The position numbers and the translations under genes were made by a program. From NCBI GenBank assembly GCA_038373885.1, contig JAWZYV010002471.1:496001-560000 (forward strand): 64,000 nucleotides of DNA. Direction: 5' to 3'. Numbering within the stretch: position 1 is the first letter of the stretch; each line of letters opens with the position of its first letter. This stretch comes from Cheiracanthium punctorium. Taxonomy: Eukaryota > Arthropoda > Arachnida > Araneae > Cheiracanthiidae. The notes beneath the pieces are model-generated. The model saw nothing but the letters and a program-made list of their open reading frames with translations. It was not told the origin of the DNA and searched no databases. Positions 28,313 through 53,470 of this stretch are shown in pieces.

Positions 28313-28535
28313 TCCTTCATCTGTAGGGAAATCGCTCGCCGCGCCCAACTCGACTCATCACAGCTGCCGGAACCGGAGGACACATGGACTTCTCGTATGC
28401 CAACCGTGTTCGAAACGGAAACTTGTTCCATAGGTTGACATGTCCCGCATCTGAAAAGAGAACATGTATTGGCGCCAAATGCCTAAGCATTTCACTTAAA
28501 AAACAAAGCACTGTAAAAAAAGCCGAAACTTAGAG
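28313..28535 (+). repeat. Left edge of 322-bp satellite (partial, diverged first monomer)
   Basis: The array begins abruptly at CTTCATCTGTAGGG inside the monomer. This first, partial copy carries several private changes (for example GGGAAATCG, CAGCTGCCGG, TTCGAAACGG and TTCCATAGG) that the core copies lack. TTCCATAGG recurs only at the decayed right edge, near 45,253. Edge copies escaping homogenisation fit unequal crossing-over or gene conversion. Confidence 0.9.
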
Positions 28536-31500
28536 TGTGTCCATAGAGAAATGATTTTTTTACCTCCGGTATAGCGTGGGCCGCTCAGTCAATAGCCGGA
28601 AGGGGGCCGGGTCTTGTGCTCCCGTCGCCGTCGTCTTCATCTGTAGGGAGATCGCTCGCCGCGCGCCCAACTCGACTCATCACAGCGGCCGGAACCGGAG
28701 GACACATGGACTTCTCGTATGCCAACCGTGTTCGACACGGAAACTTGTTCCGTAGGTTGACATGTCCCGCATCTGAAAAGAGAACATGTATTGGCGCCAA
28801 ATGCCTAAGCATTTCACTTAAAAAACAAAGCACTGTAAAAAAAGCCGAAACTTAGAGTGTGCCCATAGAGAAATGATTTTTTTACCTCCGGTTTAGCGTG
28901 GGCCGCTCAGTCAATAGCCGGAAGGGGGCCGGGTCTTGTGCTCCCGTCGCCGTCGTCTTCATCTGTAGGGAGATCGCTCGCCGCGCGCCCAACTCGACTC
29001 ATCACAGCGGCCGGAACCGGAGGACACATGGACTTCTCGTATGCCAACCGTGTTCGACACGGAAACTTGTTCCGTAGGTTGACATGTCCCGCATCTGAAA
29101 AGAGAACATGTATTGGCGCCAAATGCCTAAGCATTTCACTTAAAAAACAAAGCACTGTAAAAAAAGCCGAAACTTAGAGTGTGCCCATAGAGAAATTATT
29201 TTTTTACCTCCGGTTTAGCGTGGGCCGCTCAGTCAATAGCCGGAAGGGGGCCGGGTCTTGTGCTCCCGTCGCCGTCGTCTTCATCTGTAGGGAGATCGCT
29301 CGCCGCGCGCCCAACTCGACTCATCACAGCGGCCGGAACCGGAGGACACATGGACTTCTCGTATGCCAACCGTGTTCGACACGGAAACTTGTTCCGTAGG
29401 TTGACATGTCCCGCATCTGAAAAGAGAACATGTATTGGCGCCAAATGCCTAAGCATTTCACTTAAAAAACAAAGCACTGTAAAAAAAGCCGAAACTTAGA
29501 GTGTGTCCATAGAGAAATGATTTTTTTACCTCCGGTTTAGCGTGGGCCGCTCAGTCAATAGCCGGAAGGGGGCCGGGTCTTGTGCTCCCGTCGCCGTCGT
29601 CTTCATCTGTAGGGAGATCGCTCGCCGCGCGCCCAACTCGACTCATCACAGCGGCCGGAACCGGAGGACACATGGACTTCTCGTATGCCAACCGTGTTCG
29701 ACACGGAAACTTGTTCCGTAGGTTGACATGTCCCGCATCTGAAAAGAGAACATGTATTGGCGCCAAATGCCTAAGCATTTCACTTAAAAAACAAAGCACT
29801 GTAAAAAAAGCCGAAACTTAGAGTGTGTCCATAGAGAAATGATTTTTTTACCTCCGGTATAGCGTGGGCCGCTCAGTCAATAGCCGGAAGGGGGCCGGGT
29901 CTTGTGCTCCCGTCGCCGTCGTCTTCATCTGTAGGGAGATCGCTCGCCGCGCGCCCAACTCGACTCATCACAGCGGCCGGAACCGGAGGACACATGGACT
30001 TCTCGTATGCCAACCGTGTTCGACACGGAAACTTGTTCCGTAGGTTGACATGTCCCGCATCTGAAAAGAGAACATGTATTGGCGCCAAATGCCTAAGCAT
30101 TTCACTTAAAAAACAAAGCACTGTAAAAAAAGCCGAAACTTAGAGTGTGCCCATAGAGAAATTATTTTTTTACCTCCGGTTTAGCGTGGGCCGCTCAGTC
30201 AATAGCCGGAAGGGGGCCGGGTCTTGTGCTCCCGTCGCCGTCGTCTTCATCTGTAGGGAGATCGCTCGCCGCGCGCCCAACTCGACTCATCACAGCGGCC
30301 GGAACCGGAGGACACATGGACTTCTCGTATGCCAACCGTGTTCGACACGGAAACTTGTTCCGTAGGTTGACATGTCCCGCATCTGAAAAGAGAACATGTA
30401 TTGGCGCCAAATGCCTAAGCATTTCACTTAAAAAACAATGCACTGTAAAAAACGCCGAAACTTAGAGTGTGCCCATAGAGAAATGATTTTTTTACCTCCG
30501 GTATAGCGTGGGCCGCGCAGTCAATAGCCGGAAGGGGGCCGGGTCTTGTGCTCCCGTCGCCGTCGTCTTCATCTGTAGGGAGATCGCTCGCCGCGCGCCC
30601 AACTCGACTCATCACAGCGGCCGGAACCGGAGGACACATGGACTTCTCGTATGCCAACCGTGTTCGACACGGAAACTTGTTCCGTAGGTTGACATGTCCC
30701 GCATCTGAAAAGAGAACATGTATTGGCGCCAAATGCCTAAGCATTTCACTTAAAAAACAAAGCACTGTAAAAAAAGCCGAAACTTAGAGTGTGCCCATAG
30801 AGAAATGATTTTTTTTACCTCCGGTTTAGCGTGGGCCGCTCAGTCAATAGCCGGAAGGGGGCCGGGTCTTGTGCTCCCGTCGCCGTCGTCTTCATCTGTA
30901 GGGAGATCGCTCGCCGCGCGCCCAACTCGACTCATCACAGCGGCCGGAACCGGAGGACACATGGACTTCTCGTATGCCAACCGTGTTCGACACGGAAACT
31001 TGTTCCGTAGGTTGACATGTCCCGCATCTGAAAAGAGAACATGTATTGGCGCCAAATGCCTAAGCATTTCACTTAAAAAACAAAGCACTGTAAAAAAAGC
31101 CGAAACTTAGAGTGTGTCCATAGAGAAATGATTTTTTTACCTCCGGTTTAGCGTGGGCCGCTCAGTCAATAGCCGGAAGGGGGCCGGGTCTTGTGCTCCC
31201 GTCGCCGTCGTCTTCATCTGTAGGGAGATCGCTCGCCGCGCGCCCAACTCGACTCATCACAGCGGCCGGAACCGGAGGACACATGGACTTCTCGTATGCC
31301 AACCGTGTTCGACACGGAAACTTGTTCCGTAGGTTGACATGTCCCGCATCTGAAAAGAGAACATGTATTGGCGCCAAATGCCTAAGCATTTCACTTAAAA
31401 AACAAAGCACTGTAAAAAAAGCCGAAACTTAGAGTGTGCCCATAGAGAAATGATTTTTTTACCTCCGGTTTAGCGTGGGCCGCTCAGTCAATAGCCGGAA

Positions 31501-34500
31501 GGGGGCCGGGTCTTGTGCTCCCGTCGCCGTCGTCTTCATCTGTAGGGAGATCGCTCGCCGCGCGCCCAACTCGACTCATCACAGCGGCCGGAACCGGAGG
31601 ACACATGGACTTCTCGTATGCCAACCGTGTTCGACACGGAAACTTGTTCCGTAGGTTGACATGTCCCGCATCTGAAAAGAGAACATGTATTGGCGCCAAA
31701 TGCCTAAGCATTTCACTTAAAAAACAAAGCACTGTAAAAAAAGCCGAAACTTAGAGTGTGCCCATAGAGAAATTATTTTTTTACCTCCGGTTTAGCGTGG
31801 GCCGCTCAGTCAATAGCCGGAAGGGGGCCGGGTCTTGTGCTCCCGTCGCCGTCGTCTTCATCTGTAGGGAGATCGCTCGCCGCGCGCCCAACTCGACTCA
31901 TCACAGCGGCCGGAACCGGAGGACACATGGACTTCTCGTATGCCAACCGTGTTCGACACGGAAACTTGTTCCGTAGGTTGACATGTCCCGCATCTGAAAA
32001 GAGAACATGTATTGGCGCCAAATGCCTAAGCATTTCACTTAAAAAACAAAGCACTGTAAAAAAAGCCGAAACTTAGAGTGTGTCCATAGAGAAATGATTT
32101 TTTTACCTCCGGTTTAGCGTGGGCCGCTCAGTCAATAGCCGGAAGGGGGCCGGGTCTTGTGCTCCCGTCGCCGTCGTCTTCATCTGTAGGGAGATCGCTC
32201 GCCGCGCGCCCAACTCGACTCATCACAGCGGCCGGAACCGGAGGACACATGGACTTCTCGTATGCCAACCGTGTTCGACACGGAAACTTGTTCCGTAGGT
32301 TGACATGTCCCGCATCTGAAAAGAGAACATGTATTGGCGCCAAATGCCTAAGCATTTCACTTAAAAAACAAAGCACTGTAAAAAAAGCCGAAACTTAGAG
32401 TGTGCCCATAGAGAAATGATTTTTTTACCTCCGGTTTAGCGTGGGCCGCTCAGTCAATAGCCGGAAGGGGGCCGGGTCTTGTGCTCCCGTCGCCGTCGTC
32501 TTCATCTGTAGGGAGATCGCTCGCCGCGCGCCCAACTCGACTCATCACAGCGGCCGGAACCGGAGGACACATGGACTTCTCGTATGCCAACCGTGTTCGA
32601 CACGGAAACTTGTTCCGTAGGTTGACATGTCCCGCATCTGAAAAGAGAACATGTATTGGCGCCAAATGCCTAAGCATTTCACTTAAAAAACAAAGCACTG
32701 TAAAAAAAGCCGAAACTTAGAGTGTGCCCATAGAGAAATGATTTTTTTACCTCCGGTTTAGCGTGGGCCGCTCAGTCAATAGCCGGAAGGGGGCCGGGTC
32801 TTGTGCTCCCGTCGCCGTCGTCTTCATCTGTAGGGAGATCGCTCGCCGCGCGCCCAACTCGACTCATCACAGCGGCCGGAACCGGAGGACACATGGACTT
32901 CTCGTATGCCAACCGTGTTCGACACGGAAACTTGTTCCGTAGGTTGACATGTCCCGCATCTGAAAAGAGAACATGTATTGGCGCCAAATGCCTAAGCATT
33001 TCACTTAAAAAACAAAGCACTGTAAAAAAAGCCGAAACTTAGAGTGTGTCCATAGAGAAATGATTTTTTTACCTCCGGTATAGCGTGGGCCGCTCAGTCA
33101 ATAGCCGGAAGGGGGCCGGGTCTTGTGCTCCCGTCGCCGTCGTCTTCATCTGTAGGGAGATCGCTCGCCGCGCGCCCAACTCGACTCATCACAGCGGCCG
33201 GAACCGGAGGACACATGGACTTCTCGTATGCCAACCGTGTTCGACACGGAAACTTGTTCCGTAGGTTGACATGTCCCGCATCTGAAAAGAGAACATGTAT
33301 TGGCGCCAAATGCCTAAGCATTTCACTTAAAAAACAAAGCACTGTAAAAAAAGCCGAAACTTAGAGTGTGCCCATAGAGAAATTATTTTTTTACCTCCGG
33401 TTTAGCGTGGGCCGCTCAGTCAATAGCCGGAAGGGGGCCGGGTCTTGTGCTCCCGTCGCCGTCGTCTTCATCTGTAGGGAGATCGCTCGCCGCGCGCCCA
33501 ACTCGACTCATCACAGCGGCCGGAACCGGAGGACACATGGACTTCTCGTATGCCAACCGTGTTCGACACGGAAACTTGTTCCGTAGGTTGACATGTCCCG
33601 CATCTGAAAAGAGAACATGTATTGGCGCCAAATGCCTAAGCATTTCACTTAAAAAACAAAGCACTGTAAAAAAAGCCGAAACTTAGAGTGTGCCCATAGA
33701 GAAATTATTTTTTTACCTCCGGTTTAGCGTGGGCCGCTCAGTCAATAGCCGGAAGGGGGCCGGGTCTTGTGCTCCCGTCGCCGTCGTCTTCATCTGTAGG
33801 GAGATCGCTCGCCGCGCGCCCAACTCGACTCATCACAGCGGCCGGAACCGGAGGACACATGGACTTCTCGTATGCCAACCGTGTTCGACACGGAAACTTG
33901 TTCCGTAGGTTGACATGTCCCGCATCTGAAAAGAGAACATGTATTGGCGCCAAATGCCTAAGCATTTCACTTAAAAAACAAAGCACTGTAAAAAAAGCCG
34001 AAACTTAGAGTGTGTCCATAGAGAAATGATTTTTTTACCTCCGGTTTAGCGTGGGCCGCTCAGTCAATAGCCGGAAGGGGGCCGGGTCTTGTGCTCCCGT
34101 CGCCGTCGTCTTCATCTGTAGGGAGATCGCTCGCCGCGCGCCCAACTCGACTCATCACAGCGGCCGGAACCGGAGGACACATGGACTTCTCGTATGCCAA
34201 CCGTGTTCGACACGGAAACTTGTTCCGTAGGTTGACATGTCCCGCATCTGAAAAGAGAACATGTATTGGCGCCAAATGCCTAAGCATTTCACTTAAAAAA
34301 CAAAGCACTGTAAAAAAAGCCGAAACTTAGAGTGTGTCCATAGAGAAATGATTTTTTTACCTCCGGTTTAGCGTGGGCCGCTCAGTCAATAGCCGGAAGG
34401 GGGCCGGGTCTTGTGCTCCCGTCGCCGTCGTCTTCATCTGTAGGGAGATCGCTCGCCGCGCGCCCAACTCGACTCATCACAGCGGCCGGAACCGGAGGAC

Positions 34501-37500
34501 ACATGGACTTCTCGTATGCCAACCGTGTTCGACACGGAAACTTGTTCCGTAGGTTGACATGTCCCGCATCTGAAAAGAGAACATGTATTGGCGCCAAATG
34601 CCTAAGCATTTCACTTAAAAAACAAAGCACTGTAAAAAAAGCCGAAACTTAGAGTGTGCCCATAGAGAAATGATTTTTTTACCTCCGGTTTAGCGTGGGC
34701 CGCTCAGTCAATAGCCGGAAGGGGGCCGGGTCTTGTGCTCCCGTCGCCGTCGTCTTCATCTGTAGGGAGATCGCTCGCCGCGCGCCCAACTCGACTCATC
34801 ACAGCGGCCGGAACCGGAGGACACATGGACTTCTCGTATGCCAACCGTGTTCGACACGGAAACTTGTTCCGTAGGTTGACATGTCCCGCATCTGAAAAGA
34901 GAACATGTATTGGCGCCAAATGCCTAAGCATTTCACTTAAAAAACAAAGCACTGTAAAAAAAGCCGAAACTTAGAGTGTGCCCATAGAGAAATGATTTTT
35001 TTACCTCCGGTTTAGCGTGGGCCGCTCAGTCAATAGCCGGAAGGGGGCCGGGTCTTGTGCTCCCGTCGCCGTCGTCTTCATCTGTAGGGAGATCGCTCGC
35101 CGCGCGCCCAACTCGACTCATCACAGCGGCCGGAACCGGAGGACACATGGACTTCTCGTATGCCAACCGTGTTCGACACGGAAACTTGTTCCGTAGGTTG
35201 ACATGTCCCGCATCTGAAAAGAGAACATGTATTGGCGCCAAATGCCTAAGCATTTCACTTAAAAAACAAAGCACTGTAAAAAAAGCCGAAACTTAGAGTG
35301 TGTCCATAGAGAAATGATTTTTTTACCTCCGGTTTAGCGTGGGCCGCTCAGTCAATAGCCGGAAGGGGGCCGGGTCTTGTGCTCCCGTCGCCGTCGTCTT
35401 CATCTGTAGGGAGATCGCTCGCCGCGCGCCCAACTCGACTCATCACAGCGGCCGGAACCGGAGGACACATGGACTTCTCGTATGCCAACCGTGTTCGACA
35501 CGGAAACTTGTTCCGTAGGTTGACATGTCCCGCATCTGAAAAGAGAACATGTATTGGCGCCAAATGCCTAAGCATTTCACTTAAAAAACAAAGCACTGTA
35601 AAAAAAGCCGAAACTTAGAGTGTGTCCATAGAGAAATGATTTTTTTACCTCCGGTTTAGCGTGGGCCGCTCAGTCAATAGCCGGAAGGGGGCCGGGTCTT
35701 GTTCTCCCGTCGCCGTCGTCTTCATCTGTAGGGAGATCGCTCGCCGCGCGCCCAACTCGACTCATCACAGCGGCCGGAACCGGAGGACACATGGACTTCT
35801 CGTATGCCAACCGTGTTCGACACGGAAACTTGTTCCGTAGGTTGACATGTCCCGCATCTGAAAAGAGAACATGTATTGGCGCCAAATGCCTAAGCATTTC
35901 ACTTAAAAAACAAAGCACTGTAAAAAAAGCCGAAACTTAGAGTGTGCCCATAGAGAAATGATTTTTTTACCTCCGGTTTAGCGTGGGCCGCTCAGTCAAT
36001 AGCCGGAAGGGGGCCGGGTCTTGTGCTCCCGTCGCCGTCGTCTTCATCTGTAGGGAGATCGCTCGCCGCGCGCCCAACTCGACTCATCACAGCGGCCGGA
36101 ACCGGAGGACACATGGACTTCTCGTATGCCAACCGTGTTCGACACGGAAACTTGTTCCGTAGGTTGACATGTCCCGCATCTGAAAAGAGAACATGTATTG
36201 GCGCCAAATGCCTAAGCATTTCACTTAAAAAACAAAGCACTGTAAAAAAAGCCGAAACTTAGAGTGTGTCCATAGAGAAATGATTTTTTTACCTCCGGTT
36301 TAGCGTGGGCCGCTCAGTCAATAGCCGGAAGGGGGCCGGGTCTTGTGCTCCCGTCGCCGTCGTCTTCATCTGTAGGGAGATCGCTCGCCGCGCGCCCAAC
36401 TCGACTCATCACAGCGGCCGGAACCGGAGGACACATGGACTTCTCGTATGCCAACCGTGTTCGACACGGAAACTTGTTCCGTAGGTTGACATGTCCCGCA
36501 TCTGAAAAGAGAACATGTATTGGCGCCAAATGCCTAAGCATTTCACTTAAAAAACAAAGCACTGTAAAAAAAGCCGAAACTTAGAGTGTGTCCATAGAGA
36601 AATGATTTTTTTACCTCCGGTTTAGCGTGGGCCGCTCAGTCAATAGCCGGAAGGGGGCCGGGTCTTGTGCTCCCGTCGCCGTCGTCTTCATCTGTAGGGA
36701 GATCGCTCGCCGCGCGCCCAACTCGACTCATCACAGCGGCCGGAACCGGAGGACACATGGACTTCTCGTATGCCAACCGTGTTCGACACGGAAACTTGTT
36801 CCGTAGGTTGACATGTCCCGCATCTGAAAAGAGAACATGTATTGGCGCCAAATGCCTAAGCATTTCACTTAAAAAACAAAGCACTGTAAAAAAAGCCGAA
36901 ACTTAGAGTGTGCCCATAGAGAAATGATTTTTTTACCTCCGGTTTAGCGTGGGCCGCTCAGTCAATAGCCGGAAGGGGGCCGGGTCTTGTGCTCCCGTCG
37001 CCGTCGTCTTCATCTGTAGGGAGATCGCTCGCCGCGCGCCCAACTCGACTCATCACAGCGGCCGGAACCGGAGGACACATGGACTTCTCGTATGCCAACC
37101 GTGTTCGACACGGAAACTTGTTCCGTAGGTTGACATGTCCCGCATCTGAAAAGAGAACATGTATTGGCGCCAAATGCCTAAGCATTTCACTTAAAAAACA
37201 AAGCACTGTAAAAAAAGCCGAAACTTAGAGTGTGTCCATAGAGAAATTATTTTTTTACCTCCGGTTTAGCGTGGGCCGCTCAGTCAATAGCCGGAAGGGG
37301 GCCGGGTCTTGTGCTCCCGTCGCCGTCGTCTTCATCTGTAGGGAGATCGCTCGCCGCGCGCCCAACTCGACTCATCACAGCGGCCGGAACCGGAGGACAC
37401 ATGGACTTCTCGTATGCCAACCGTGTTCGACACGGAAACTTGTTCCGTAGGTTGACATGTCCCGCATCTGAAAAGAGAACATGTATTGGCGCCAAATGCC

Positions 37501-38197
37501 TAAGCATTTCACTTAAAAAACAAAGCACTGTAAAAAAAGCCGAAACTTAGAGTGTGCCCATAGAGAAATTATTTTTTTACCTCCGGTTTAGCGTGGGCCG
37601 CTCAGTCAATAGCCGGAAGGGGGCCGGGTCTTGTGCTCCCGTCGCCGTCGTCTTCATCTGTAGGGAGATCGCTCGCCGCGCGCCCAACTCGACTCATCAC
37701 AGCGGCCGGAACCGGAGGACACATGGACTTCTCGTATGCCAACCGTGTTCGACACGGAAACTTGTTCCGTAGGTTGACATGTCCCGCATCTGAAAAGAGA
37801 ACATGTATTGGCGCCAAATGCCTAAGCATTTCACTTAAAAAACAAAGCACTGTAAAAAAAGCCGAAACTTAGAGTGTGTCCATAGAGAAATGATTTTTTT
37901 ACCTCCGGTATAGCGTGGGCCGCTCAGTCAATAGCCGGAAGGGGGCCGGGTCTTGTGCTCCCGTCGCCGTCGTCTTCATCTGTAGGGAGATCGCTCGCCG
38001 CGCGCCCAACTCGACTCATCACAGCGGCCGGAACCGGAGGACACATGGACTTCTCGTATGCCAACCGTGTTCGACACGGAAACTTGTTCCGTAGGTTGAC
38101 ATGTCCCGCATCTGAAAAGAGAACATGTATTGGCGCCAAATGCCTAAGCATTTCACTTAAAAAACAAAGCACTGTAAAAAAAGCCGAAACTTAGAGT

Positions 38198-38520
38198 GTG
38201 TCCATAGAGAAATGATTTTTTTTACCTCCGGTATAGCGTGGGCCGCTCAGTCAATAGCCGGAAGGGGGCCGGGTCTTGTTCTATCGTCGCCGTCGTCTTC
38301 ATCTGTATCGAGATCGCTCGCCACGCGCCCAAAACGACTCATCACAGCGGCCGAAACCGGAGGACACATGGACTTCTCGTATGCCAACCGTGTTCGACAC
38401 GGAAACTTGTTCCGTAGGTTGACATGTCCCGCATCTGAAAAGAGAACATGTATTGGCGCCAAATGCCTAAGCATTTCACTTAAAAAACAAAGCACTGTAA
38501 AAAAAGCCGAAACTTAGAGT
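38198..38520 (+). repeat. Divergent monomer inside the satellite array
   Basis: Unlike its neighbours this copy reads TTCTATCGTCGCC, TGTATCGAGATCGC, CCACGCGCCC, AAAACGACTC and GCCGAAACC over about 90 bp, then becomes identical to the core again. CTATCG and GTATCG are shared with the decayed right-edge copy near 44,830-44,870. It looks like an old edge-type sequence patched into the core, with one half already converted. Confidence 0.85.
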
Positions 38521-41500
38521 GTGCCCATAGAGAAATTATTTTTTTACCTCCGGTTTAGCGTGGGCCGCTCAGTCAATAGCCGGAAGGGGGCCGGGTCTTG
38601 TGCTCCCGTCGCCGTCGTCTTCATCTGTAGGGAGATCGCTCGCCGCGCGCCCAACTCGACTCATCACAGCGGCCGGAACCGGAGGACACATGGACTTCTC
38701 GTATGCCAACCGTGTTCGACACGGAAACTTGTTCCGTAGGTTGACATGTCCCGCATCTGAAAAGAGAACATGTATTGGCGCCAAATGCCTAAGCATTTCA
38801 CTTAAAAAACAAAGCACTGTAAAAAAAGCCGAAACTTAGAGTGTGTCCATAGAGAAATGATTTTTTTACCTCCGGTTTAGCGTGGGCCGCTCAGTCAATA
38901 GCCGGAAGGGGGCCGGGTCTTGTGCTCCCGTCGCCGTCGTCTTCATCTGTAGGGAGATCGCTCGCCGCGCGCCCAACTCGACTCATCACAGCGGCCGGAA
39001 CCGGAGGACACATGGACTTCTCGTATGCCAACCGTGTTCGACACGGAAACTTGTTCCGTAGGTTGACATGTCCCGCATCTGAAAAGAGAACATGTATTGG
39101 CGCCAAATGCCTAAGCAATTCACTTAAAAAACAATGCTCTGTAAAAAACGCCGAAACTTAGAGTGTGCCCATAGAGAAATTATTTTTTTTACCTCCGGTT
39201 TAGCGTGGGCCGCTCAGTCAATAGCCGGAAGGGGGCCGGGTCTTGTGCTCCCGTCGCCGTCGTCTTCATCTGTAGGGAGATCGCTCGCCGCGCGCCCAAC
39301 TCGACTCATCACAGCGGCCGGAACCGGAGGACACATGGACTTCTCGTATGCCAACCGTGTTCGACACGGAAACTTGTTCCGTAGGTTGACATGTCCCGCA
39401 TCTGAAAAGAGAACATGTATTGGCGCCAAATGCCTAAGCATTTCACTTAAAAAACAAAGCACTGTAAAAAAAGCCGAAACTTAGAGTGTGTCCATAGAGA
39501 AATGATTTTTTTACCTCCGGTTTAGCGTGGGCCGCTCAGTCAATAGCCGGAAGGGGGCCGGGTCTTGTGCTCCCGTCGCCGTCGTCTTCATCTGTAGGGA
39601 GATCGCTCGCCGCGCGCCCAACTCGACTCATCACAGCGGCCGGAACCGGAGGACACATGGACTTCTCGTATGCCAACCGTGTTCGACACGGAAACTTGTT
39701 CCGTAGGTTGACATGTCCCGCATCTGAAAAGAGAACATGTATTGGCGCCAAATGCCTAAGCATTTCACTTAAAAAACAAAGCACTGTAAAAAAAGCCGAA
39801 ACTTAGAGTGTGTCCATAGAGAAATGATTTTTTTACCTCCGGTTTAGCGTGGGCCGCTCAGTCAATAGCCGGAAGGGGGCCGGGTCTTGTGCTCCCGTCG
39901 CCGTCGTCTTCATCTGTAGGGAGATCGCTCGCCGCGCGCCCAACTCGACTCATCACAGCGGCCGGAACCGGAGGACACATGGACTTCTCGTATGCCAACC
40001 GTGTTCGACACGGAAACTTGTTCCGTAGGTTGACATGTCCCGCATCTGAAAAGAGAACATGTATTGGCGCCAAATGCCTAAGCATTTCACTTAAAAAACA
40101 AAGCACTGTAAAAAAAGCCGAAACTTAGAGTGTGCCCATAGAGAAATTATTTTTTTACCTCCGGTTTAGCGTGGGCCGCTCAGTCAATAGCCGGAAGGGG
40201 GCCGGGTCTTGTGCTCCCGTCGCCGTCGTCTTCATCTGTAGGGAGATCGCTCGCCGCGCGCCCAACTCGACTCATCACAGCGGCCGGAACCGGAGGACAC
40301 ATGGACTTCTCGTATGCCAACCGTGTTCGACACGGAAACTTGTTCCGTAGGTTGACATGTCCCGCATCTGAAAAGAGAACATGTATTGGCGCCAAATGCC
40401 TAAGCATTTCACTTAAAAAACAAAGCACTGTAAAAAAAGCCGAAACTTAGAGTGTGTCCATAGAGAAATTATTTTTTTACCTCCGGTTTAGCGTGGGCCG
40501 CTCAGTCAATAGCCGGAAGGGGGCCGGGTCTTGTGCTCCCGTCGCCGTCGTCTTCATCTGTAGGGAGATCGCTCGCCGCGCGCCCAACTCGACTCATCAC
40601 AGCGGCCGGAACCGGAGGACACATGGACTTCTCGTATGCCAACCGTGTTCGACACGGAAACTTGTTCCGTAGGTTGACATGTCCCGCATCTGAAAAGAGA
40701 ACATGTATTGGCGCCAAATGCCTAAGCATTTCACTTAAAAAACAAAGCACTGTAAAAAAAGCCGAAACTTAGAGTGTGTCCATAGAGAAATGATTTTTTT
40801 ACCTCCGGTTTAGCGTGGGCCGCTCAGTCAATAGCCGGAAGGGGGCCGGGTCTTGTGCTCCCGTCGCCGTCGTCTTCATCTGTAGGGAGATCGCTCGCCG
40901 CGCGCCCAACTCGACTCATCACAGCGGCCGGAACCGGAGGACACATGGACTTCTCGTATGCCAACCGTGTTCGACACGGAAACTTGTTCCGTAGGTTGAC
41001 ATGTCCCGCATCTGAAAAGAGAACATGTATTGGCGCCAAATGCCTAAGCATTTCACTTAAAAAACAAAGCACTGTAAAAAAAGCCGAAACTTAGAGTGTG
41101 TCCATAGAGAAATGATTTTTTTACCTCCGGTTTAGCGTGGGCCGCTCAGTCAATAGCCGGAAGGGGGCCGGGTCTTGTGCTCCCGTCGCCGTCGTCTTCA
41201 TCTGTAGGGAGATCGCTCGCCGCGCGCCCAACTCGACTCATCACAGCGGCCGGAACCGGAGGACACATGGACTTCTCGTATGCCAACCGTGTTCGACACG
41301 GAAACTTGTTCCGTAGGTTGACATGTCCCGCATCTGAAAAGAGAACATGTATTGGCGCCAAATGCCTAAGCATTTCACTTAAAAAACAAAGCACTGTAAA
41401 AAAAGCCGAAACTTAGAGTGTGTCCATAGAGAAATGATTTTTTTACCTCCGGTTTAGCGTGGGCCGCTCAGTCAATAGCCGGAAGGGGGCCGGGTCTTGT

Positions 41501-43852
41501 GCTCCCGTCGCCGTCGTCTTCATCTGTAGGGAGATCGCTCGCCGCGCGCCCAACTCGACTCATCACAGCGGCCGGAACCGGAGGACACATGGACTTCTCG
41601 TATGCCAACCGTGTTCGACACGGAAACTTGTTCCGTAGGTTGACATGTCCCGCATCTGAAAAGAGAACATGTATTGGCGCCAAATGCCTAAGCATTTCAC
41701 TTAAAAAACAAAGCACTGTAAAAAAAGCCGAAACTTAGAGTGTGCCCATAGAGAAATTATTTTTTTACCTCCGGTTTAGCGTGGGCCGCTCAGTCAATAG
41801 CCGGAAGGGGGCCGGGTCTTGTGCTCCCGTCGCCGTCGTCTTCATCTGTAGGGAGATCGCTCGCCGCGCGCCCAACTCGACTCATCACAGCGGCCGGAAC
41901 CGGAGGACACATGGACTTCTCGTATGCCAACCGTGTTCGACACGGAAACTTGTTCCGTAGGTTGACATGTCCCGCATCTGAAAAGAGAACATGTATTGGC
42001 GCCAAATGCCTAAGCATTTCACTTAAAAAACAAAGCACTGTAAAAAAAGCCGAAACTTAGAGTGTGTCCATAGAGAAATGATTTTTTTACCTCCGGTTTA
42101 GCGTGGGCCGCTCAGTCAATAGCCGGAAGGGGGCCGGGTCTTGTTCTCCCGTCGCCGTCGTCTTCATCTGTAGGGAGATCGCTCGCCGCGCGCCCAACTC
42201 GACTCATCACAGCGGCCGGAACCGGAGGACACATGGACTTCTCGTATGCCAACCGTGTTCGACACGGAAACTTGTTCCGTAGGTTGACATGTCCCGCATC
42301 TGAAAAGAGAACATGTATTGGCGCCAAATGCCTAAGCATTTCACTTAAAAAACAAAGCACTGTAAAAAAAGCCGAAACTTAGAGTGTGCCCATAGAGAAA
42401 TTATTTTTTTACCTCCGGTTTAGCGTGGGCCGCTCAGTCAATAGCCGGAAGGGGGCCGGGTCTTGTGCTCCCGTCGCCGTCGTCTTCATCTGTAGGGAGA
42501 TCGCTCGCCGCGCGCCCAACTCGACTCATCACAGCGGCCGGAACCGGAGGACACATGGACTTCTCGTATGCCAACCGTGTTCGACACGGAAACTTGTTCC
42601 GTAGGTTGACATGTCCCGCATCTGAAAAGAGAACATGTATTGGCGCCAAATGCCTAAGCATTTCACTTAAAAAACAAAGCACTGTAAAAAAAGCCGAAAC
42701 TTAGAGTGTGCCCATAGAGAAATGATTTTTTTTACCTCCGGTTTAGCGTGGGCCGCTCAGTCAATAGCCGGAAGGGGGCCGGGTCTTGTGCTCCCGTCGC
42801 CGTCGTCTTCATCTGTAGGGAGATCGCTCGCCGCGCGCCCAACTCGACTCATCACAGCGGCCGGAACCGGAGGACACATGGACTTCTCGTATGCCAACCG
42901 TGTTCGACACGGAAACTTGTTCCGTAGGTTGACATGTCCCGCATCTGAAAAGAGAACATGTATTGGCGCCAAATGCCTAAGCATTTCACTTAAAAAACAA
43001 AGCACTGTAAAAAAAGCCGAAACTTAGAGTGTGTCCATAGAGAAATGATTTTTTTACCTCCGGTTTAGCGTGGGCCGCTCAGTCAATAGCCGGAAGGGGG
43101 CCGGGTCTTGTGCTCCCGTCGCCGTCGTCTTCATCTGTAGGGAGATCGCTCGCCGCGCGCCCAACTCGACTCATCACAGCGGCCGGAACCGGAGGACACA
43201 TGGACTTCTCGTATGCCAACCGTGTTCGACACGGAAACTTGTTCCGTAGGTTGACATGTCCCGCATCTGAAAAGAGAACATGTATTGGCGCCAAATGCCT
43301 AAGCATTTCACTTAAAAAACAAAGCACTGTAAAAAAAGCCGAAACTTAGAGTGTGTCCATAGAGAAATGATTTTTTTACCTCCGGTTTAGCGTGGGCCGC
43401 TCAGTCAATAGCCGGAAGGGGGCCGGGTCTTGTGCTCCCGTCGCCGTCGTCTTCATCTGTAGGGAGATCGCTCGCCGCGCGCCCAACTCGACTCATCACA
43501 GCGGCCGGAACCGGAGGACACATGGACTTCTCGTATGCCAACCGTGTTCGACACGGAAACTTGTTCCGTAGGTTGACATGTCCCGCATCTGAAAAGAGAA
43601 CATGTATTGGCGCCAAATGCCTAAGCATTTCACTTAAAAAACAAAGCACTGTAAAAAAAGCCGAAACTTAGAGTGTGTCCATAGAGAAATGATTTTTTTA
43701 CCTCCGGTTTAGCGTGGGCCGCTCAGTCAATAGCCGGAAGGGGGCCGGGTCTTGTGCTCCCGTCGCCGTCGTCTTCATCTGTAGGGAGATCGCTCGCCGC
43801 GCGCCCAACTCGACTCATCACAGCGGCCGGAACCGGAGGACACATGGACTTC

Positions 43853-44296
43853 TTTGTATGCAACCATTTTCAAAAAGACTGGCAACGGAAAAACTTTTCC
43901 GAGGAAGACACTCTCACCAACTTATTTTTTAAAACGAATGTCAACCATACCACTGGCGAACAACACAAAAATAAGAACAATAGAAAAAATAAAAATGACA
44001 CTGAATAAAAACTAGCAGACCGAAAACCCTTTTTCATGTCAAGAGCACGAAACGTTATTTAAAACCATCAAAAGAAAGTTTCTATGCCTTCCACTCAGAA
44101 AGCCATAGAGGGGTTGTAGCATGGCGCATAAATTTCGTAGTCTATATTTTGGGAATATCAAGCTTTGATTCGTATAATTACATAACTTAGACACAAGAAA
44201 CATACAGGACCTTACTCGAGTGCCACACATAGCTGTTTCGAAAAAAACGAAACTATGATGAAATTCCTATAGATAACGGGAAAATTGCATTGTTCT
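43853..44296 (+). repeat. Break in the satellite: diverged or foreign segment
   Basis: The last regular monomer stops after ACATGGACTTCT. What follows still resembles the unit for some 40 bp (TATGCAACC, ACGGAAAAACTTTTCCG) and then becomes unrelated AT-rich sequence. Part of it (ACTAGCAGACCGAAAAC and CAAGAGCACG) resembles the degenerate tandem repeat at 46.1-49.0 kb. Monomer sequence resumes at about 44,297 (CCGCATCTGAAAAGAG). Confidence 0.7.
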
Positions 44297-45480
44297 CCGC
44301 ATCTGAAAAGAGAACATGTATTGGCGCCAAAAGCACTAAGGCAATTCACTTAAAAAAACAAAGCACTGTAAAAACGGCCGGAAACTTAGAAGTGTTGCCC
44401 ATAGAGAAATTATTTTTTTTACCTCCGGTATAGCCGTGGGCCGCTCAGTCCAACGAGCCGGAAGGGGGCCGGGTCCTTGTGCTCTCCGTCGGCCGTCGTC
44501 TGCCTTCGGTAGGGAGAATCGCTCGGCCGCGCGCCCAAACTCGACTCATCACAGCGGCCGGAACCGGAGTGACACATGGGACTGCTCGTAAATGCCAACC
44601 GTGTTTCCGGACACGGAAACTTGTTCCGTAGGATGACATGTCCCGCATCTGAAAAGGAGAAGCATGTATTTGGCGCCAAATGCCTAAGCAATTTCACTTA
44701 AGAAAACAGAGCACTGTAAAAAAACGCCGAAAACTTAGAGTGTGCCCATAAGAGAAATGAATTTTTTACCTCCGGTATAGCGTGGGCCGCTCAGGTGCAA
44801 TAGTCCACCGGAAGGGGGCCGGGTCTTGTGCTATCGTCGCCGTCGTCCTTCATACCGGTATCGAAATCGCTCGCCGCACGCGCCAACACGACCACATCCA
44901 GAGCGGCTCGGAACCGGAGGACACATTGGACTTTCGATGCAACCTGTTCGACACGGAAAATTTTTCCTAGGTTGAAGTGATTGAAAAAGAAAATAATTGG
45001 CCCAAATGCCTAAATTTTCCCTTAAAAAAAAAAAGCACTGTAAAAAAAACCCAAATTGAGTTGCCAAAAAATTTTTTTTTTTACCCCCGGTTTAGCGGGG
45101 CGTCAGCAATACCGAAGGGGGCCCGGTCTTTGCTTTTCCCCCTTGTCTTTCATCTGTAGGGAGTCGCTCGCCCCCCGCCCAAACCCATCATCAAGCGGGG
45201 AACCCGGGGGACCAGGATTTTGTATGCCAACCGTGTTCGACACGGAAACTTGTTCCATAGGTGACATGTCCCGCATCTGAAAAAAAAAACAGTATTGGGG
45301 GCCAAAGCCTAAGCAATTTTTAAAAAAAAAAGAAATGAAAAAAAAACGAAACTTAGAGTGGCCATAAGAAAAATTTTTTTTCCCCTATAGCGTGCCGTCA
45401 GTAAACGGTGGGCGTTTTGGGCTTTTTTTTGGCGGGGGGGTCCGCCGCGTACTCATTCTGTAGGGAGATCGCTCGCCCGC
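44297..45480 (+). repeat. Decayed right flank of the 322-bp satellite
   Basis: About three and a half monomers are recognisable but carry many single-base insertions, deletions and homopolymer changes that worsen to the right. Examples are GGCCGTCGTCTGCC for GCCGTCGTC and GGGAGAATCGCTCGGCC. The open frames of the core are destroyed. Either this is a truly old array edge, or the assembly here rests on poorly corrected long-read sequence; the dominance of indels over substitutions favours the second. Confidence 0.85.
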
Positions 45481-45813
45481 TCGGCAACAAAAGACTGCAT
45501 CATAGCGGCCGGGAAACGTAGTGTGAGCGAACACACACATTGGGCGTGCGAGGAGGCATACAGTGTGTTAGAGAAATGTGAAACGTGGGTAATTGTGGTG
45601 TGTGTGGGAGCGGGGGATGGACACACAATTATGAGAGAGAGTACTCTCTCTGGTGTGGACAAATTTTGAATTTGATTGGAATTAGGTTTTTTTATGGGAT
45701 AGGGTTTTTAGATGTTTAGGGTGGGGGGAGATTTGTGTTGGTGGTGGTGGGTAATTAAGGGGTGAGGGAGTGGGAAAGATGGATTGTTGAATTGGGGGAG
45801 GGCGGGGCTTGTG
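45481..45813. other. G/T-skewed, C-poor low-complexity stretch
   Basis: From about 45,530 the plus strand becomes dominated by G, T and A with very few C: for example GGGTGGGGGGAGATTTGTG and GGTGGTGGTGGG. It lies between recognisable satellite fragments. Artefact, strand-biased mutation, or a G-quadruplex-prone repeat are all possible. I see no gene. Confidence 0.6.
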
Positions 45814-45925
45814 CTATCGTCGCACTGTAAAAAAGCTGAAACTTAGAGTGCGCATAGAGAAATTATTTTTTACTTCCAATATAGCGTGTTCCGTTCAGTG
45901 AATTCGTGTAAGGGCGATTTAAACT
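45814..45925 (+). repeat. Last satellite fragment, internally deleted
   Basis: TTGTGCTATCGTCG is joined directly to CACTGTAAAAAAGC, skipping about 190 bp of the monomer. It continues through ACTTAGAGTG, the T run and ATAGCGTG before similarity ends. This is the right-hand limit of the family in the window. Confidence 0.75.
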
Positions 45926-46366
45926 GGGAACATTTTTTTTGCGGACCTCTGGAGTCTACTATTGGCAGCTGCTGTAACAGAGCACAAGAGCCGGTTTACC
46001 GAAATATACCAGATCAGACATGTCGTTATTAATAACATTTTTAATAAAAATGTGTTATAATTTTTGAAGTAAAACTTCTTTAGGAGAAACTAGGGAGTAA
46101 CTCAGATATTTTTCCTGACGGAAGTAACGCTCACGCGGTTTTGGAAAAGCGGAAGCTGCCTGTGATCGAACCCAACCAGCAGGCGAAAACTACAGTTTAA
46201 GAACACGGTGATAGAAAAACATGAAGAAATGGAACCTGCAATCGAACCAAACTAGCAGACGAAAACTACATTTCAAGAGCACGGAAACAGAATAATACTT
46301 CGAACAAAACCAGCAGAGAAAAAGAAAGTTTTAAGAACACTGCCATAGAAAAAGGCAATAATAGAC

Positions 46367-47359
46367 TAAGGCGACCATATTTCTAACAGTGATTTGGGGA
46401 CAAATCAAGCATTGTCCTAGAATCTAAACAAAACTTGGGGACACTAGAAAATATTTTCGAGGACTTATTCGAGGACACAACTTATTACCATGTATACCCT
46501 CCAAAAAAAGAAATCGAGTAAGAGATAAATTTCCTATTTTAGATTTGCGAATAATAATTGAGTTTTTGAAAAACATAAAACGTGACAGAAATATGGAAAG
46601 TCATACTTATACATATCCTAATTCATATTCTATGATAAATAATTTTTAATATACGAAACCAACGTAGGAAATTTTTACTCGAATACTTTTTTTGGAGGGT
46701 GTATACCAGTATACCCATACTTTAAATCTTGACTGACTTTGATACTTAAAAAGGAAACCTAATAGCTCTTTATATCAATTGTGTATTCTTATTTCTAATA
46801 AATTAATGGAAGTATTTCATTCATTTATAAATATTTATTTAAAACAGTATTAAAGGAATATCATGTTGAAATACTGAAATTCATTCAAAATTTAACTCTT
46901 GGAATAGTATTTGTATTTTTCAGAAGACATTGCTTTTTACATTGGATTATTTTGTGATAATTTTTCATGAAACTTTGGACACCCTCTAAAAAAATTATTC
47001 GAGTGCAAGAAAATTTTCGTACGTCAATATCAAGCATGGTTCTTCATTAAAAGTGATTAATAATTAACAAAACTCAATTGGGAAATTTGGCTCATAGTCG
47101 GATACTTTATTGAATGTCTGTACACGTTACACACACAATGATAGCAAATGTTTGCAGAGATCGAATTTCATTGTTTCTCAGAGTAGATGGCGCTTTTAGT
47201 TGGTTTATTTTTCTTATTTCTTCAATTATTTCTGAAAGAAATAAACTAAACGGAAACTTTCAGGGAAAAAAATTCAAATCTTTAAATTTGGGGACAAAAT
47301 GAAAAAAAGATCTATATTTGGGGACTGTTCTCGAATTTCGAGGACGTATGGTCACCTTA
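46367..47359. mobile_element. hAT-like non-autonomous element, copy A (993 bp)
   Basis: The inverted ends read TAAGGCGACCATA (left) and TATGGTCACCTTA (right). A perfect 8-bp target duplication, TAATAGAC, flanks it at 46,359-46,366 and 47,360-47,367. Just inside are ATTTGGGGACAAATC and CTCGAATTTCGAGGAC. It is AT-rich with no transposase. A shorter sister copy lies 180 bp downstream. The 8-bp duplication supports hAT; the terminal TA is unusual for hAT, so the superfamily is an inference. Confidence 0.85.
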
Positions 47360-47538
47360 TAATAGACCCTATGTGCATTTGATACCAACCAACAGAAGAA
47401 AACACCAGTTTAGAAACACAGTTAAAGAAAAATACCACAACATAGACTTTCTCTTGATTCAAATCCTACGGAAAAACGTTTTAAGAAAACAGTGAAAGAA
47501 TAATTGTCCAACACAGACACTTCCTGGATGCTAACCTA

Positions 47539-48301
47539 AGTTGACCATATTTATAAACAGTATTTTGGGGACAAATCAAGCATTGTCCTGGAATCTTAGG
47601 AGAACTTGGGGACACTAGAAAATATCTTTGGGGACTTATTCGAGGACACAACATATTACCATGCTAATAGCTCTTTATATCAGTTGTGTATTCTTATTTC
47701 TAATAAATTAATGGAAGTATTTATAAATATATATTTAAACCAGAAATATGAAAGGAAAACCATGTTGAAATATTGCAATTTATTCATAATTTAATACTTG
47801 GCATAGTATTTGTATCTTTCAGAAGACACTGCTTTTTACATTGGCTCGTTTTGTGATCATTTTTCATGAAACCTTTTACACCCTCTAAAAAAGTATTCGA
47901 GTGCAAGAAAAATTTCGTACTTCAATTTCATATTTAAAGCATGGTTATTCCTGAAAAGTGATTAATCATTAACAAAACTGAAATGGGAAATTTGACTCAT
48001 AGTCGAATACTTTATTGAATGTCTGTACACGCTACACATACTTTGACAAGAAATGTTTTCAGAGATCGAATTTCATTGTTTCTCTGAGTAGAAGGCGCTT
48101 TTAGTTGTTTTATTTTTCTTATTTCTTCAATTTTTTCTGAAAGAAATAAACTAAACGGAAACTTTCAGGGGAAAAAGTACAAATCTTTAAATTTGGGGAC
48201 TTTTCACGTCCCCAAGAAGTCAAGGTATTTTTAGGGACAAAGTAAAAAAAAATCTATATTTGGGGACTGTCCTCGAATTTCGAAGACTTATGGTCTCCTT
48301 T
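47539..48301. mobile_element. hAT-like non-autonomous element, copy B (763 bp)
   Basis: This is the same family as 46,367-47,359, with TAAGTTGACCATA at the left and TATGGTCTCCTTTA at the right. The flanks TGCTAACC and TGCTACCC match at 7 of 8 positions. Compared with copy A it lacks about 230 bp in the left-central part. Its separate target duplication shows independent insertion and not a local tandem duplication. Confidence 0.83.
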
Positions 48302-49242
48302 ATGCTACCCCGACATGCAGACGGAACAACGGTTTAAGAACACGGGTATGTAACACCACAAAGAAACAAACACTGGCTGCAAGCTGTTTAAGAACAGAAT
48401 AAAAGAATAACAAATGGACACACCGTGGATTCTAACCCAACCTCAAGACGGAGGCGGTTTAACACGGGGATGGAACGTCACAAAGAAACGGACCCTGGCT
48501 GCAATCAATCCTAAACAATAAACAGAACCTGCAGTTTAAAACGCGGATGCAGTACAATAATTTGAAACCTACCAACAGACGAAATCAACGCTTAAGAATA
48601 CTGTGATAGAAAAACACACAAAAAAATGTACACTATTTGCATTCGAACCCAGCAAACAGAGGAAAACATCAGTTAAAGAACACAGTTAAAGTATAATACT
48701 AGACTATGGACATTCCCGCCATTCAAACCCAACCTCCAGACGGAACAATGGCATAAGAGAACAGTTAAAGAATAATACTACAACATGGACACTTCCTAGA
48801 TTCTAACCCAATTTCCAGGCGGAACAACGGTTCAAGAACACAGGTATGGAACACCACAAAGAAACAAACCCCAGCTGCAAACGATTTAAGAACACAGTTA
48901 AAGGATAATACATGGACACTCCCTGGATTCTAACCCAACCTCCAGACGGAACAACGGTTTAAGAATATGGGGATGAACACCACAAAGAAAATGAATCTGG
49001 CTGTAACTGAATCCAAATTCAAAGAAGTTTTACTTCAATCGCGCGTAAGGATTACACGCACTCACTTTTTTTTCTGTTTGTTTTGTTTGTATTGCTTCAT
49101 TATATTCATTTTTCGTCTCGAGAATTTTTGAGCATAGCGGAAACACATTTTAAGGTCTTTGTTGAAGCTAGCACATTTTTCGCTATTGCACAAATGTACC
49201 TTAAAATTTTATTGTGGATTTCTTTATCCTTTTATGTCTTAA

Positions 49243-49620
49243 CCCTTTAACGCGCGGTGTCCTCGCCGTGAGGACACCAAACTCTGACGTTTTGACTGTT
49301 GTCAGTCACGAAAAATAGATTTGATTACTATAAAAATAGTTGCGGGTGACATAGCTCCACGAGAATTCTTTACTTCTTAGCGCGCCATTTCCCGTAAGAA
49401 AAATTGTCATGATTATTTTTAACAGCACTTACATCTTCTGAAAAGTGGAAGAATGCGAGAACAGCTGGATAGATTGCCCAATGCTGAAAAAAGGCAACCG
49501 TTGCCATCGCTCGACTTAACTACGAGCAAGATGGCGGACGATCGAAACGTTCATCGCATGCCACAGGTCTGGAGACCCTTTTTTGACGCAGCTGGCTGTG
49601 CGCGAGACACATATTTGCTC
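49243..49620. repeat. TTAA-flanked repeat, copy 2 (relative of 917-1290)
   Basis: It starts TTAA (49,239-49,242) then CCCTTTAACGCGCGG, a piggyBac-like terminal form, followed by a short hairpin (GGTGTCCTCGCCGTGAGGACACC region). The interior matches both halves of the repeat at 917-1290, one directly and one in inverse orientation. It contains AAGATGGCGG (49,528-49,537), a YY1-type motif also kept in copy 1 (991-1000). The right end is not defined. Confidence 0.65.
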
Positions 49621-49880
49621 AGATGATGGTCGTACACTTTTAAGAAACCATCGAGATGCTTTTTTGTGCGTTTGCAGTAACTTTTGACATGTATACCTCT
49701 TTAAATATACTTGCATATTGGAGCAATTCAGTATACAGATGATAAGGAAATCGGAGGTTTGATGTTGCAGCTACGTACCTCATAATCTACATCTAAAATT
49801 TTACTACACCAGTCGATAGCGAAAGTTTCAGGTAACGTTAAGTGAGGGCTGTGACTTTTCGCTCTCCGTGAAAGGGAAGA

Positions 49881-49892
49881 GCCGCCATTTTG
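49881..49892 (-). promoter_or_regulatory. YY1-like motif in a CpG-richer patch
   Basis: GCCGCCATTTTG is the reverse complement of a YY1-type site (CAAAATGGCGGC). It lies in a short patch (about 49,855-49,915) with more CpG than its neighbours. It could mark a promoter, but no exon was identified next to it. Confidence 0.25.
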
Positions 49893-50203
49893 AGGTCGTT
49901 TCGCTGCGTCACATAATATCCGTTTAGTTTAAATGTTTACTCGCAGAAATTAGGACATTCGTTTGCGTTTCAACCGTCAGTTCTCGTCAAGATCTATCGA
50001 TTGAGCATATAAAACAATAGTGTGAAATAATTATATTGAATGTGTATATGATGTTAAATTAAGAAATTAAAATAAATAATTGAATGTCGGCCTATTATTG
50101 TCCAAAAAACAAATGAAAAAGATTATACCCGAATACGGGCCGGATCTCGCTATACACCAGTCGTGATTTTCAGAAACTTTATACGTGAAACTTAATGTGT
50201 TAA

Positions 50204-50721
50204 CCCTCTCGTCACCGAATTATAAAAAAATCAGAGAAAAAAAAATCAGTCTAGCATTTAATGCATCTGAAATACTATTATAAATCATGCAAAAATATTT
50301 TTTTCTAATGTCGATTAATATTAGATTTTTCTAATATTAATTTCTGCATTTTCGAAGCATTTTGTTATACTAAAATTAATTTAAAAGGATGCACATATTA
50401 GGTAAAGGTTGAGGAATAAGAAAAAAAAACTATACTTACCTTAAAAAGAAAAGAAAACGGTAAAAAATCCGCTTAAATATTTTCATAATTTTTCTCCTGA
50501 AACAATGAAGCTAAAACTGTAAAAAATGATCTAAATTGACTAGTACTGCAATCTAGTCACGATTTATGCATCTAGTTAAGAGCCTCACATACTTTCTACA
50601 TGAATTAATGATATTGATATCACTGAAAGAAAAAAAAAAATATACTAAATTCAACTGTTTTCTCTCTAAATATTGCTATTTGAAGTAGGAGCCTCATATG
50701 AGGTTCAGGGTGACGAGAGGG
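50204..50721. mobile_element. piggyBac-like MITE (518 bp) with TTAA duplications
   Basis: Perfect 13-bp inverted ends, CCCTCTCGTCACC and GGTGACGAGAGGG, are flanked on both sides by TTAA (50,200-50,203 and 50,722-50,725). TTAA targeting plus ends beginning CCC is the signature of the piggyBac superfamily. The interior is AT-rich and non-coding, so it would have been moved by a transposase encoded elsewhere. Confidence 0.92.
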
Positions 50722-50725
50722 TTAA

Positions 50726-53470
50726 TGTCTCGCAGGAAAACTCATTTCCCGACTTCATGATCAACGAGTTTAATTTTTCTTACATTGGAACTTTTTCAAC
50801 AACGGCAGGTAATACCTGTATTTATTTAACCTTTGCTAGAAACCTCAATGTATCTTTATGCCATTTGCATGTATTTTTCGTATCACGGACCTATCATTAA
50901 TAAAGTTATAACAGTCTTTGTTTTCTTGATTTCTTTACTCCCTGAACCCGATGAAACGCAAAGAAAATTATTACTCACAGCCAAAGCCCGTTTCTCGCAG
51001 CGTCTAGGTTCCTTTTGTGCTCATCTTGAAACGCATTCCGCATTTACTTTGAAATCACTTGTGAAATTGACGTCATTTTGATGTCATGATTTTTGAACCG
51101 AGTTAAGAAACTCAATATTGGGTTAACAAAAGAATTAGATCCCGAGCTATGTATTTCTTGAAATTCTCAGGTGTCGACGAATTTAAAATTTACCATACAA
51201 TTACTGCGTTTTTTAAAATTTTTTATCTAATATGTCGGCGAGATTCTGTTTTTACCCACGGTTGACACTGTCTTTTTAAATTGCCAGGCTTAAAAAAAAA
51301 TATTGGTTGCGAAGGCGATAAAAAAATTGTACATTTCAGATGATATGATGCGAAATGGTGGATACGCCTGACCTCCCGGAAAGTTTTATTGAAATTTAAT
51401 TAAAGAAAAAGAAATGCGTGTATAATATGATATGGTTGAAAAAGATATTTTTATTTATGTCAGCGTTGCCTTTTGTAGTGGAGAACTCAATACTCTGCTG
51501 AGCAAATTTTTGGTGCTTTACGAAAAAACTAACGCTGAAAGCTAACTTTAGACAAGTTTTCAGTAGTTTTGGAGTAAATTTTCGTGCTCCATTTTGAATT
51601 AAACGCTACTTATGTGATAATCTGCCAAAATTATTTGGCGAAAATACCGTTCTTCGGCAATGGTTGTAGATCTTAACATCAAGTGCGTTTACTGCTTATT
51701 AATCTCTCTGAGATGTATTATTATTTTAAAATAGCGAAATCGTGCCAAAATAAAGGTGAGTGCGTTTTCCCGTTATTTTTATAACCTGTGTTTTCGTAAT
51801 ATATTTTCTCACACACACACAAACACACAATCGTCACGTAGAATATGTTTAGGTGTACAGCCGGCGTTACGAAATATTTCATCTTGTTAATGGATAGTAA
51901 TCAATTAACCTCCGTCAATGTAGAGTAGTGTATGGTGTTTAAGAACGGAGATTTTTTTAATAATTTACAAACCCATATTAGTAGAAGGAGGGGTGAATAA
52001 CAAAGTGAAACTCAAATTTCATAAAATAGGATAACGGCGAATAACAGCTATGAAAATAAGGAAAGTTATAGAATTGGCATGAAGTTAGCTAAAAAGCAAA
52101 GATTTGAGAAAAACCCATAACCCTACAGTATATTATGCACGGCGAAAACCCAGCAAATACGAAAACTATCTCCCTGCTTAAAATCCTGGTTGTAACAACC
52201 GCAAAAGAAAATTAAATTTAATAATATCGGTTTATTTACGGGTATTCATAAAAAAATATTGTGTTTATGTTTTCTAGATACAGCAAAATATAGTTAGTAT
52301 AAAATATAGCTATTCAATAGAGATATCATGGTAAAACTTCTTCGGAAAATCAAAAGACGTTCTTAAAACGTAATAACAACTAGAGGGATATGCTACTATT
52401 CAGTGGTTCTTCAGTCTTTTTATACAAACTTTAGACTGAAAAGATGTCACAGCAAGAAACTACAATAAGCTCATGCTCAATAAAAAATTATTCACATTAA
52501 ATTATATTTCAAAGTTTCACATGACTATGATATTAAATATATTAAAATATGCATTGATTTGTCAGCAAATTTTGCCAAAGACGTCTAAAAATCTGACAAT
52601 CATTATAATAATATAATTAATTAATACATATATACATATAAATATATATGTATATATATACACTATCATATCTTATTACATCGCTTATATTATGTATTAC
52701 AATGCAACAGTTAAACTATTAAGTTCCTCCTACCTTAACCTTTAGCGCTCACTTGGCGACGGCCTTGGCGTAATTTCAACTTTACACAAATTCCTGAAAC
52801 TTTGAAGAGCATTTTCTTTTGCCACCTTCTTCTGTGAAATTTTTTGTGGAAATGACGGTTCCTGCTGAGTTCTCTTTGTTGTGATATTATTGGCACCACA
52901 TTGTTAGTGTTTGTTTGTTATGTAAACAAACGCAACAAATGTCTCCCAACAATGATATGACATTGTTACGTCATCTAATGTAAATTATGCTGATATAGGA
53001 ATTTTATAGAAAATTATGAAAAAAATTGAAAAAAATCAGAAAATTTCACAAATAATAAAGTTTTATACACATTTCCCACACTGAATATCAATCAGCATCA
53101 CAATTTGCAGTCATATGTTAAAGAAAATCTAATAAAAAGCAATATTCTGCCTCCTATTCTCTCAAGCGTGAATCACACTAAACACACATAATTTTACTCT
53201 AAATTCCCTATTTCAAATAAAATTACAGAATATTAGATAAATAAAGATGCTCCTCACTCTCTTACACATATTCTTTTTCATTCAATTCCTTCTTTCCCAT
53301 CGTGAAACCTTCATACAATCATACAGTTCATCCAAAGATTTCTCCTTTTCGTTCCAAAAATTTCATATTTTTATTAACTTCATGCTGGAAATTGATAATT
53401 TCTCATCATTTTGCATTGCTTTCATGTAATACCATTACTTTTTATACATAATACCTGACGTAACCATTTA
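50726..53470. other. No recognised gene; scattered motif-like sites
   Basis: AT-rich sequence. Points noted: an octamer-like ATTTGCAT near 50,864, a full CRE palindrome TGACGTCA at 51,068-51,075, a strong consensus 5' splice site (AAGGTGAGT) at about 51,753-51,761, and TA-rich microsatellite at 52,625-52,665. Facing forkhead-type sites GTTTGTTT and GTAAACAAAC lie at 52,909-52,931. TTAACCTTTAGCGCTCACTT at 52,735 resembles another piggyBac-type end, without a partner. None is tied to a recognisable exon. Confidence 0.35.

Follow-up and report, generated by a model that had tools for sequence, protein, structure and literature searches.

A GC-rich 322-bp satellite family of Cheiracanthium punctorium that evolves locus by locus, with an array end and downstream DNA common to some loci

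What is the long GC-rich tandem array on a contig of the spider Cheiracanthium punctorium: a young satellite, a subrepeat of a larger unit, or a locus that was amplified on its own? These readings were all put forward in an initial annotation of a 64,000-nucleotide stretch of DNA (the window, C2329:496001-560000). We cut and compared the units of this array, searched the genome (2,534,024,540 bases in 15,171 contigs) for relatives, and aligned the DNA adjoining them.

The array in the window and its right end

The array and the sequence that follows it are made up of the following parts:

28315 to 43871 (+): tandem array of 322-bp units, 48 full and one partial (TRF, unit cutting, monomer matches)
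43872 to 44296 (no strand): segment within the right end with no good relative among the loci compared at that stage (best E 4e-4 over 50 bases)
44297 to 45518 (+): roughly four more copies whose indels lean one-sidedly to insertion and then to deletion; probably unpolished (monomer alignment)
45519 to 45821 (no strand): C-poor stretch without any C in 45700-45799; probably faulty sequence (base composition)
45822 to 45903 (+): last, diverged monomer piece, common to the right end of the C5891 array (monomer match, alignment)

TRF called a repeat of period 322 at 28315-43865, with 48.3 copies and 99% matches, which bears out the expectation of about 48 near-identical monomers. After cutting at a fixed anchor, 43 of the 48 units measured 322 bp, four 323 bp and one 320 bp, and together they comprise only 12 distinct sequences, the commonest of which occurs in 17 units. 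Mean divergence among them is 0.63%. Variation is found in 23 of 323 alignment columns and lies mostly at two sites, which split the units 26:22 and 35:13; the 17 private variants are confined to five units (six each in u32 and u01, two each in u34 and u31, one in u07), leaving 43 of 48 with none. We observed no block order of unit types: the longest repeated block is 3, within the range of 3 to 5 obtained in 483 of 500 shuffles, and the p-value of 0.036 for the best of 12 lags is accounted for by the twelve tests. A higher-order-repeat satellite was thus rejected, there being no ordered multi-monomer blocks among the 48 units.

The composition of the array is as had been described. GC content is 0.51-0.53 in the 1-kb bins fully within it (to 43000) versus 0.26-0.43 in the 28 bins leftward, and the CpG observed/expected ratio is 1.20, compared with 0.93 on the left and 0.98 on the right. 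The monomer had also been called full of dyads. This is true of inverted 6-mer pairs at most 60 bases apart, of which there are 15, whereas 500 dinucleotide shuffles average 4.5 (p 0.004), but not of the predicted single-strand fold, which is no better than that of shuffled monomers (z -0.75; 24 of 100 shuffles equally good), ruling out strong secondary structure.

The array begins abruptly at 28315 but has no such clean edge on the right. The right edge had been placed at 43852; instead, indel-rich copies run on to 45903: monomer matches resume at 44297, extend to 45512 and close with a piece at 45822-45903. Because these copies continue there, the right side is not plain AT-rich DNA before 45903. 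Aligned to the array monomer, the stretch 44297-44846 gains 37 bases, loses none and has 17 substituted; the next, 44848-45423, gains 15, loses 68 and has 40 substituted; and the short stretch 45443-45518 is mixed, gaining 7 and losing 3. Since ordinary decay would not be expected to be so one-sided in neighbouring stretches, we take 44297-45821 to be probably unpolished or faulty sequence, which makes the copy number, the right end and perhaps the evenness of the array uncertain. An array that looks perfect can thus end in sequence that looks unpolished, and copy numbers from such an assembly should not be trusted.

At alignment column 260, an A is found in 6 of the 48 units, the leftmost included, in three of the four noisy right-end copies and in the consensus monomers of four other loci compared. 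Units at the edges of the array therefore retain a variant found at other loci. Weaker homogenisation at array ends is described in a review (PMC12692304).

Related arrays at other loci

Searching the genome with three pieces of the array (4 of 93, 4 of 91 and 7 of 91 candidates scored) returned relatives on at least six other contigs: C9933, C4715, C13384, C1356, C3764 and C5891. Seven loci is a lower bound, because the searches scored few candidates and omitted the window's own array. Three of the sister arrays touch contig ends, C9933 and C1356 at base 1 and C3764 at its last base, 10943. Full-length units alone were compared, 48 from the window, 6 from C13384, 3 from C4715, 4 from C9933, 10 from C1356, 7 from C3764 and 9 from C5891. 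Each locus has its own variant of the consensus monomer, 318-326 bp in length. Mean divergence within loci is lowest in the window (0.63%, as given above), followed by C13384 (0.96%), C3764 (2.70%) and C1356 (3.68%), and is higher in C5891 (4.17%), C4715 (5.04%) and C9933 (5.13%); between loci, monomers differ by 7.17-11.66%. The window's array is the longest and most even among the seven.

These arrays thus form a satellite family that is evolving locus by locus. A single-locus amplification is contradicted by the relatives on at least six other contigs. What survives of the amplified-locus proposal is a likely local expansion, for which the data do not distinguish rolling-circle copying from unequal exchange; the proposal of a young satellite is supported in part only, by the presence at seven or more loci and by the evenness of the window's array.

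One part of the monomer is kept at all seven loci:

28578 to 28618 (+): first occurrence of a 41-bp block that the window contains 44 times in exact form (consensus comparison, exact count)

This run of 41 columns, identical in all seven consensus monomers, was reached by 0.17% of 20000 column shuffles; with five loci the identical run was 47 columns, reached by 1.6% of shuffles. As column shuffling ignores the clustering of changes, we regard it as a hint of constraint only. Conceivably, a large mobile unit of a kind not yet described could use the monomer as a functional module, for example as a promoter or as a site of protein binding. This speculative reading we consider unlikely, although the block is kept while the rest of the monomer drifts and the satellite of the window is closer to that of C13384 (7.98%) than the adjoining DNA is (12.2%). 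If true, a mobile unit would have seeded the arrays as satellites, and selection or exchange between loci would maintain them.

Two of the sister arrays have been invaded by other elements, which we identified by eye from the sequence. In C13384, there are three copies of a 1.76-kb LTR-like sequence, one of them truncated, at 98.9-100% identity to the first, and a 2.7-kb piece consisting of LTR-like sequence and array is duplicated at 99.2%. The middle copy is flanked on both sides by the array's CTTAG, and the left neighbour of the third is ATTAG, one letter off. By eye the element was read as Copia; since part of it, scanned against Pfam with stops written as X, matched no family, we name it LTR-like only. 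C13384 also contains, at 149259/151057, a stretch with roughly matching inverted ends and GGCCGGGTC on either side. In C4715, reverse transcriptase and RNase H frames lie antisense between two copies of ATAGCCGGAAGGGGG. The arrays of C13384 and C4715 are therefore older than the insertions within them. One genome thus displays several of the discussed stages of satellite birth, namely diverged short arrays, arrays broken by insertions and one evened-out array, here linked in part to a dispersed unit. A second tandem repeat, with a period of about 155 bp, was noted near the C13384 array (L009 9055-9901).

Downstream DNA and the origin of the arrays

Beyond the last monomer piece, alignment to the other loci divides the window as follows:

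45904 to 46065 (+): start of the downstream DNA common to C5891 (alignment)
46066 to 49067 (no strand): stretch in the window only, relative to C5891, with degenerate 70-80 bp repeats (alignment, repeat scan)
49068 to 55059 (+): downstream DNA common in pieces to C5891 (to 52232) and C13384 (49666-55059) (alignment)
50980 to 52230 (+): block of this common flank with 52 matches on 36 contigs (genome search, 40 of 41 candidates scored)

The array of C5891 ends in the same diverged monomer piece as that of the window and then continues into the window's downstream DNA: array end and flank are common at 85.7% identity between 45822-46065 and C5891:82891-83156, and 45822-52232 is colinear in five pieces, the C5891 sequence compared stopping at 52232. 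In C13384, other repeats come after the last array piece, and the common DNA begins only 3.2 kb beyond that piece. The flank diverges from the window by 7.4% in C5891 (2643 aligned sites) and 12.2% in C13384 (4611 sites), and the satellite by 8.85% and 7.98%, respectively; between C5891 and C13384, identity of the flank pieces is 81-86%, and divergence of the satellite is 8.16%. From these values, the satellite is more alike than the flank in two of the three locus pairs.

With 40 of 41 candidates scored, the block at 50980-52230 was found on 36 of the 15171 contigs and on three of the seven that carry the satellite. Six matches, the window's own included, span practically the whole query, and several others are shorter than 200 bases. 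The 36 do not include C9933, C4715, C1356 or C3764. For C9933 and C1356, the side downstream of the array falls off the start of the contig, and in C4715 the array gives way to a different element; C3764, by contrast, has 8.3 kb downstream of its array, and the block is absent there. The exact array end is seen in the window and C5891 only. On the other side, no sequence related to the window's left flank was found at the loci compared, except for a dispersed repeat at 913-1284 (E 1e-20).

Three further observations concern the flank. Parts of the degenerate repeats at 46159-49011 match C4715:515277-516482 at about 90%. The window carries a 0.5-kb insertion at 50200-50725, absent from the C5891 copy, with inverted ends TTAACCCTCTCGTCACC and GGTGACGAGAGGGTTAA and bounded by TTAA, which resembles a piggyBac-type MITE. 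In the C5891 flank, an exon-like stretch followed by a splice donor was picked out by eye as a candidate (L066 8401-8620).

We favour, as the probable explanation, a satellite family in which at least some of the arrays border a larger dispersed unit on one side, laid out as the array, a diverged last monomer and then several kilobases of common DNA. Satellite copies would have spread with this unit, by transposition or segmental duplication; each array would then have been expanded and evened out separately by unequal exchange or gene conversion, most recently perhaps in the window, where the copy number, the right end and part of the evenness may be set by assembly and polishing. The suggestion of a subrepeat of a larger unit is supported in part, by the array end and flank common to C5891, the farther DNA common to C13384 and the part found on 36 contigs. 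Counting against a unit, no ends, transposase or target duplication were found, the sequence covered stopping short of the ends; the exact array end is common to two loci only; C3764 lacks the block; and the left edges of the arrays fall at differing monomer positions (1 in the window, 66 in C5891, 204 in C13384). Growth of tandem arrays inside transposable elements is described in reviews (PMC10048060, PMC12628747).

How do other explanations compare? The satellite could be independent, with the common flank derived either from segmental duplication of one region or from a mobile element that by chance neighbours some arrays. That the C3764 and C4715 arrays lack this adjoining flank, that the window's left flank is without relatives beyond one dispersed repeat, and that flank and satellite have diverged to a like extent between the window and C5891 would all fit; the block, however, is on so few contigs of the genome and yet on three of seven satellite contigs, and the array end itself is common to two loci, and we find this reading rather unlikely. 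Were the array instead internal to a Helitron- or Helentron-type element and multiplied by rolling-circle copying, its junction to a dispersed unit would be expected, and such arrays are described in other animals in the same two reviews; no positive evidence favours this class, the sequence covered does not extend to the unit's ends, and we judge it improbable. Least credible to us is a LINE-type element whose 5' end carries the monomers as promoter-like repeats. GC-rich monomers do flank AT-rich DNA on one side here, and the left edges do vary in monomer position, but ORFs between 45.9 and 64 kb of the window do not exceed 116 aa, and those of the common flank are all short.

Compatible with the favoured reading of a satellite beside a dispersed unit, assembly and polishing might also explain the number of copies and much of their evenness, a real array that is smaller or more varied having been stretched or smoothed where reads could not be placed. 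The one-sided indels and the stretch without C at the right end, the 43 of 48 units free of private variants and the three of six sister arrays that run into a contig end are what this would produce, and ambiguous read placement is reported to cause polishing trouble in repeats (PMC7484160). Yet real-looking variation persists, in 22 and 13 of the 48 units at two sites, C13384 is similarly even without such an end, and a real recent expansion predicts the same pattern. We therefore regard an assembly effect of this extent as a distinct possibility, while leaning against it.

Comparison with known classes of repeats

The family is an ordinary, known kind of satellite DNA: its arrays are head-to-tail and without coding function, and they occur at several loci with units closer within than between loci. 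The common unit length of 322 is not a multiple of 3, and a coding repeat was rejected, the sole read-through frame scanned (30754-31110 of the window) having no Pfam match. The CENP-B box motif is NTTCGNNNNANNCGGGN; neither strand of the doubled window monomer contains it, and a CENP-B-box satellite was rejected. An RNA gene cluster or rDNA spacer was ruled out: at the gathering score, Rfam gave no match in the window or in L009-L013 (a set without C1356, C3764 and C5891), and a bacterial-code scan of the window gave no tRNA. Exact matches to 40-base and 26-base pieces of the satellite numbered 0 among viral, bacterial and archaeal contigs. We found no paper on a 322-bp insect satellite; as no published monomer was compared by sequence, we do not claim that the family is absent from print.

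As in classical satellite DNA under concerted evolution, head-to-tail monomers here occupy several loci and are closer within than between them, although these arrays are short, none exceeding 48 full units. The 5' end of mouse L1 elements carries tandem promoter monomers, which likewise are GC-rich, stand at one side of an AT-rich unit and have left edges at differing monomer positions. Unlike in L1, no reverse transcriptase frame was seen downstream of the array in 45.9-64 kb, where one of the 17 ORFs (55905-56255) was scanned against Pfam, giving no match. The satellite-like arrays of Crassostrea gigas Helentrons (PMC7492417, PMC10048060) resemble those described here, a likeness of arrangement and not of monomer sequence, in that an array is joined to a dispersed unit at scattered loci; they differ in that no Helentron ends or genes are shown here, and with respect to an array inside a dispersed element, we found an array end common to two loci only. 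Reverse transcriptase relatives numbered 115, few of them listed under an organism name; those names are, as far as recognised, arthropod ones, which together with a Pao peptidase match points to a probably arthropod source. This match lies to the left of the array, next to a frame at 12466-12924 without a Pfam match, at 12974-13324 (-) of the window (PF05380, Pao retrotransposon peptidase, E 6.6e-12).
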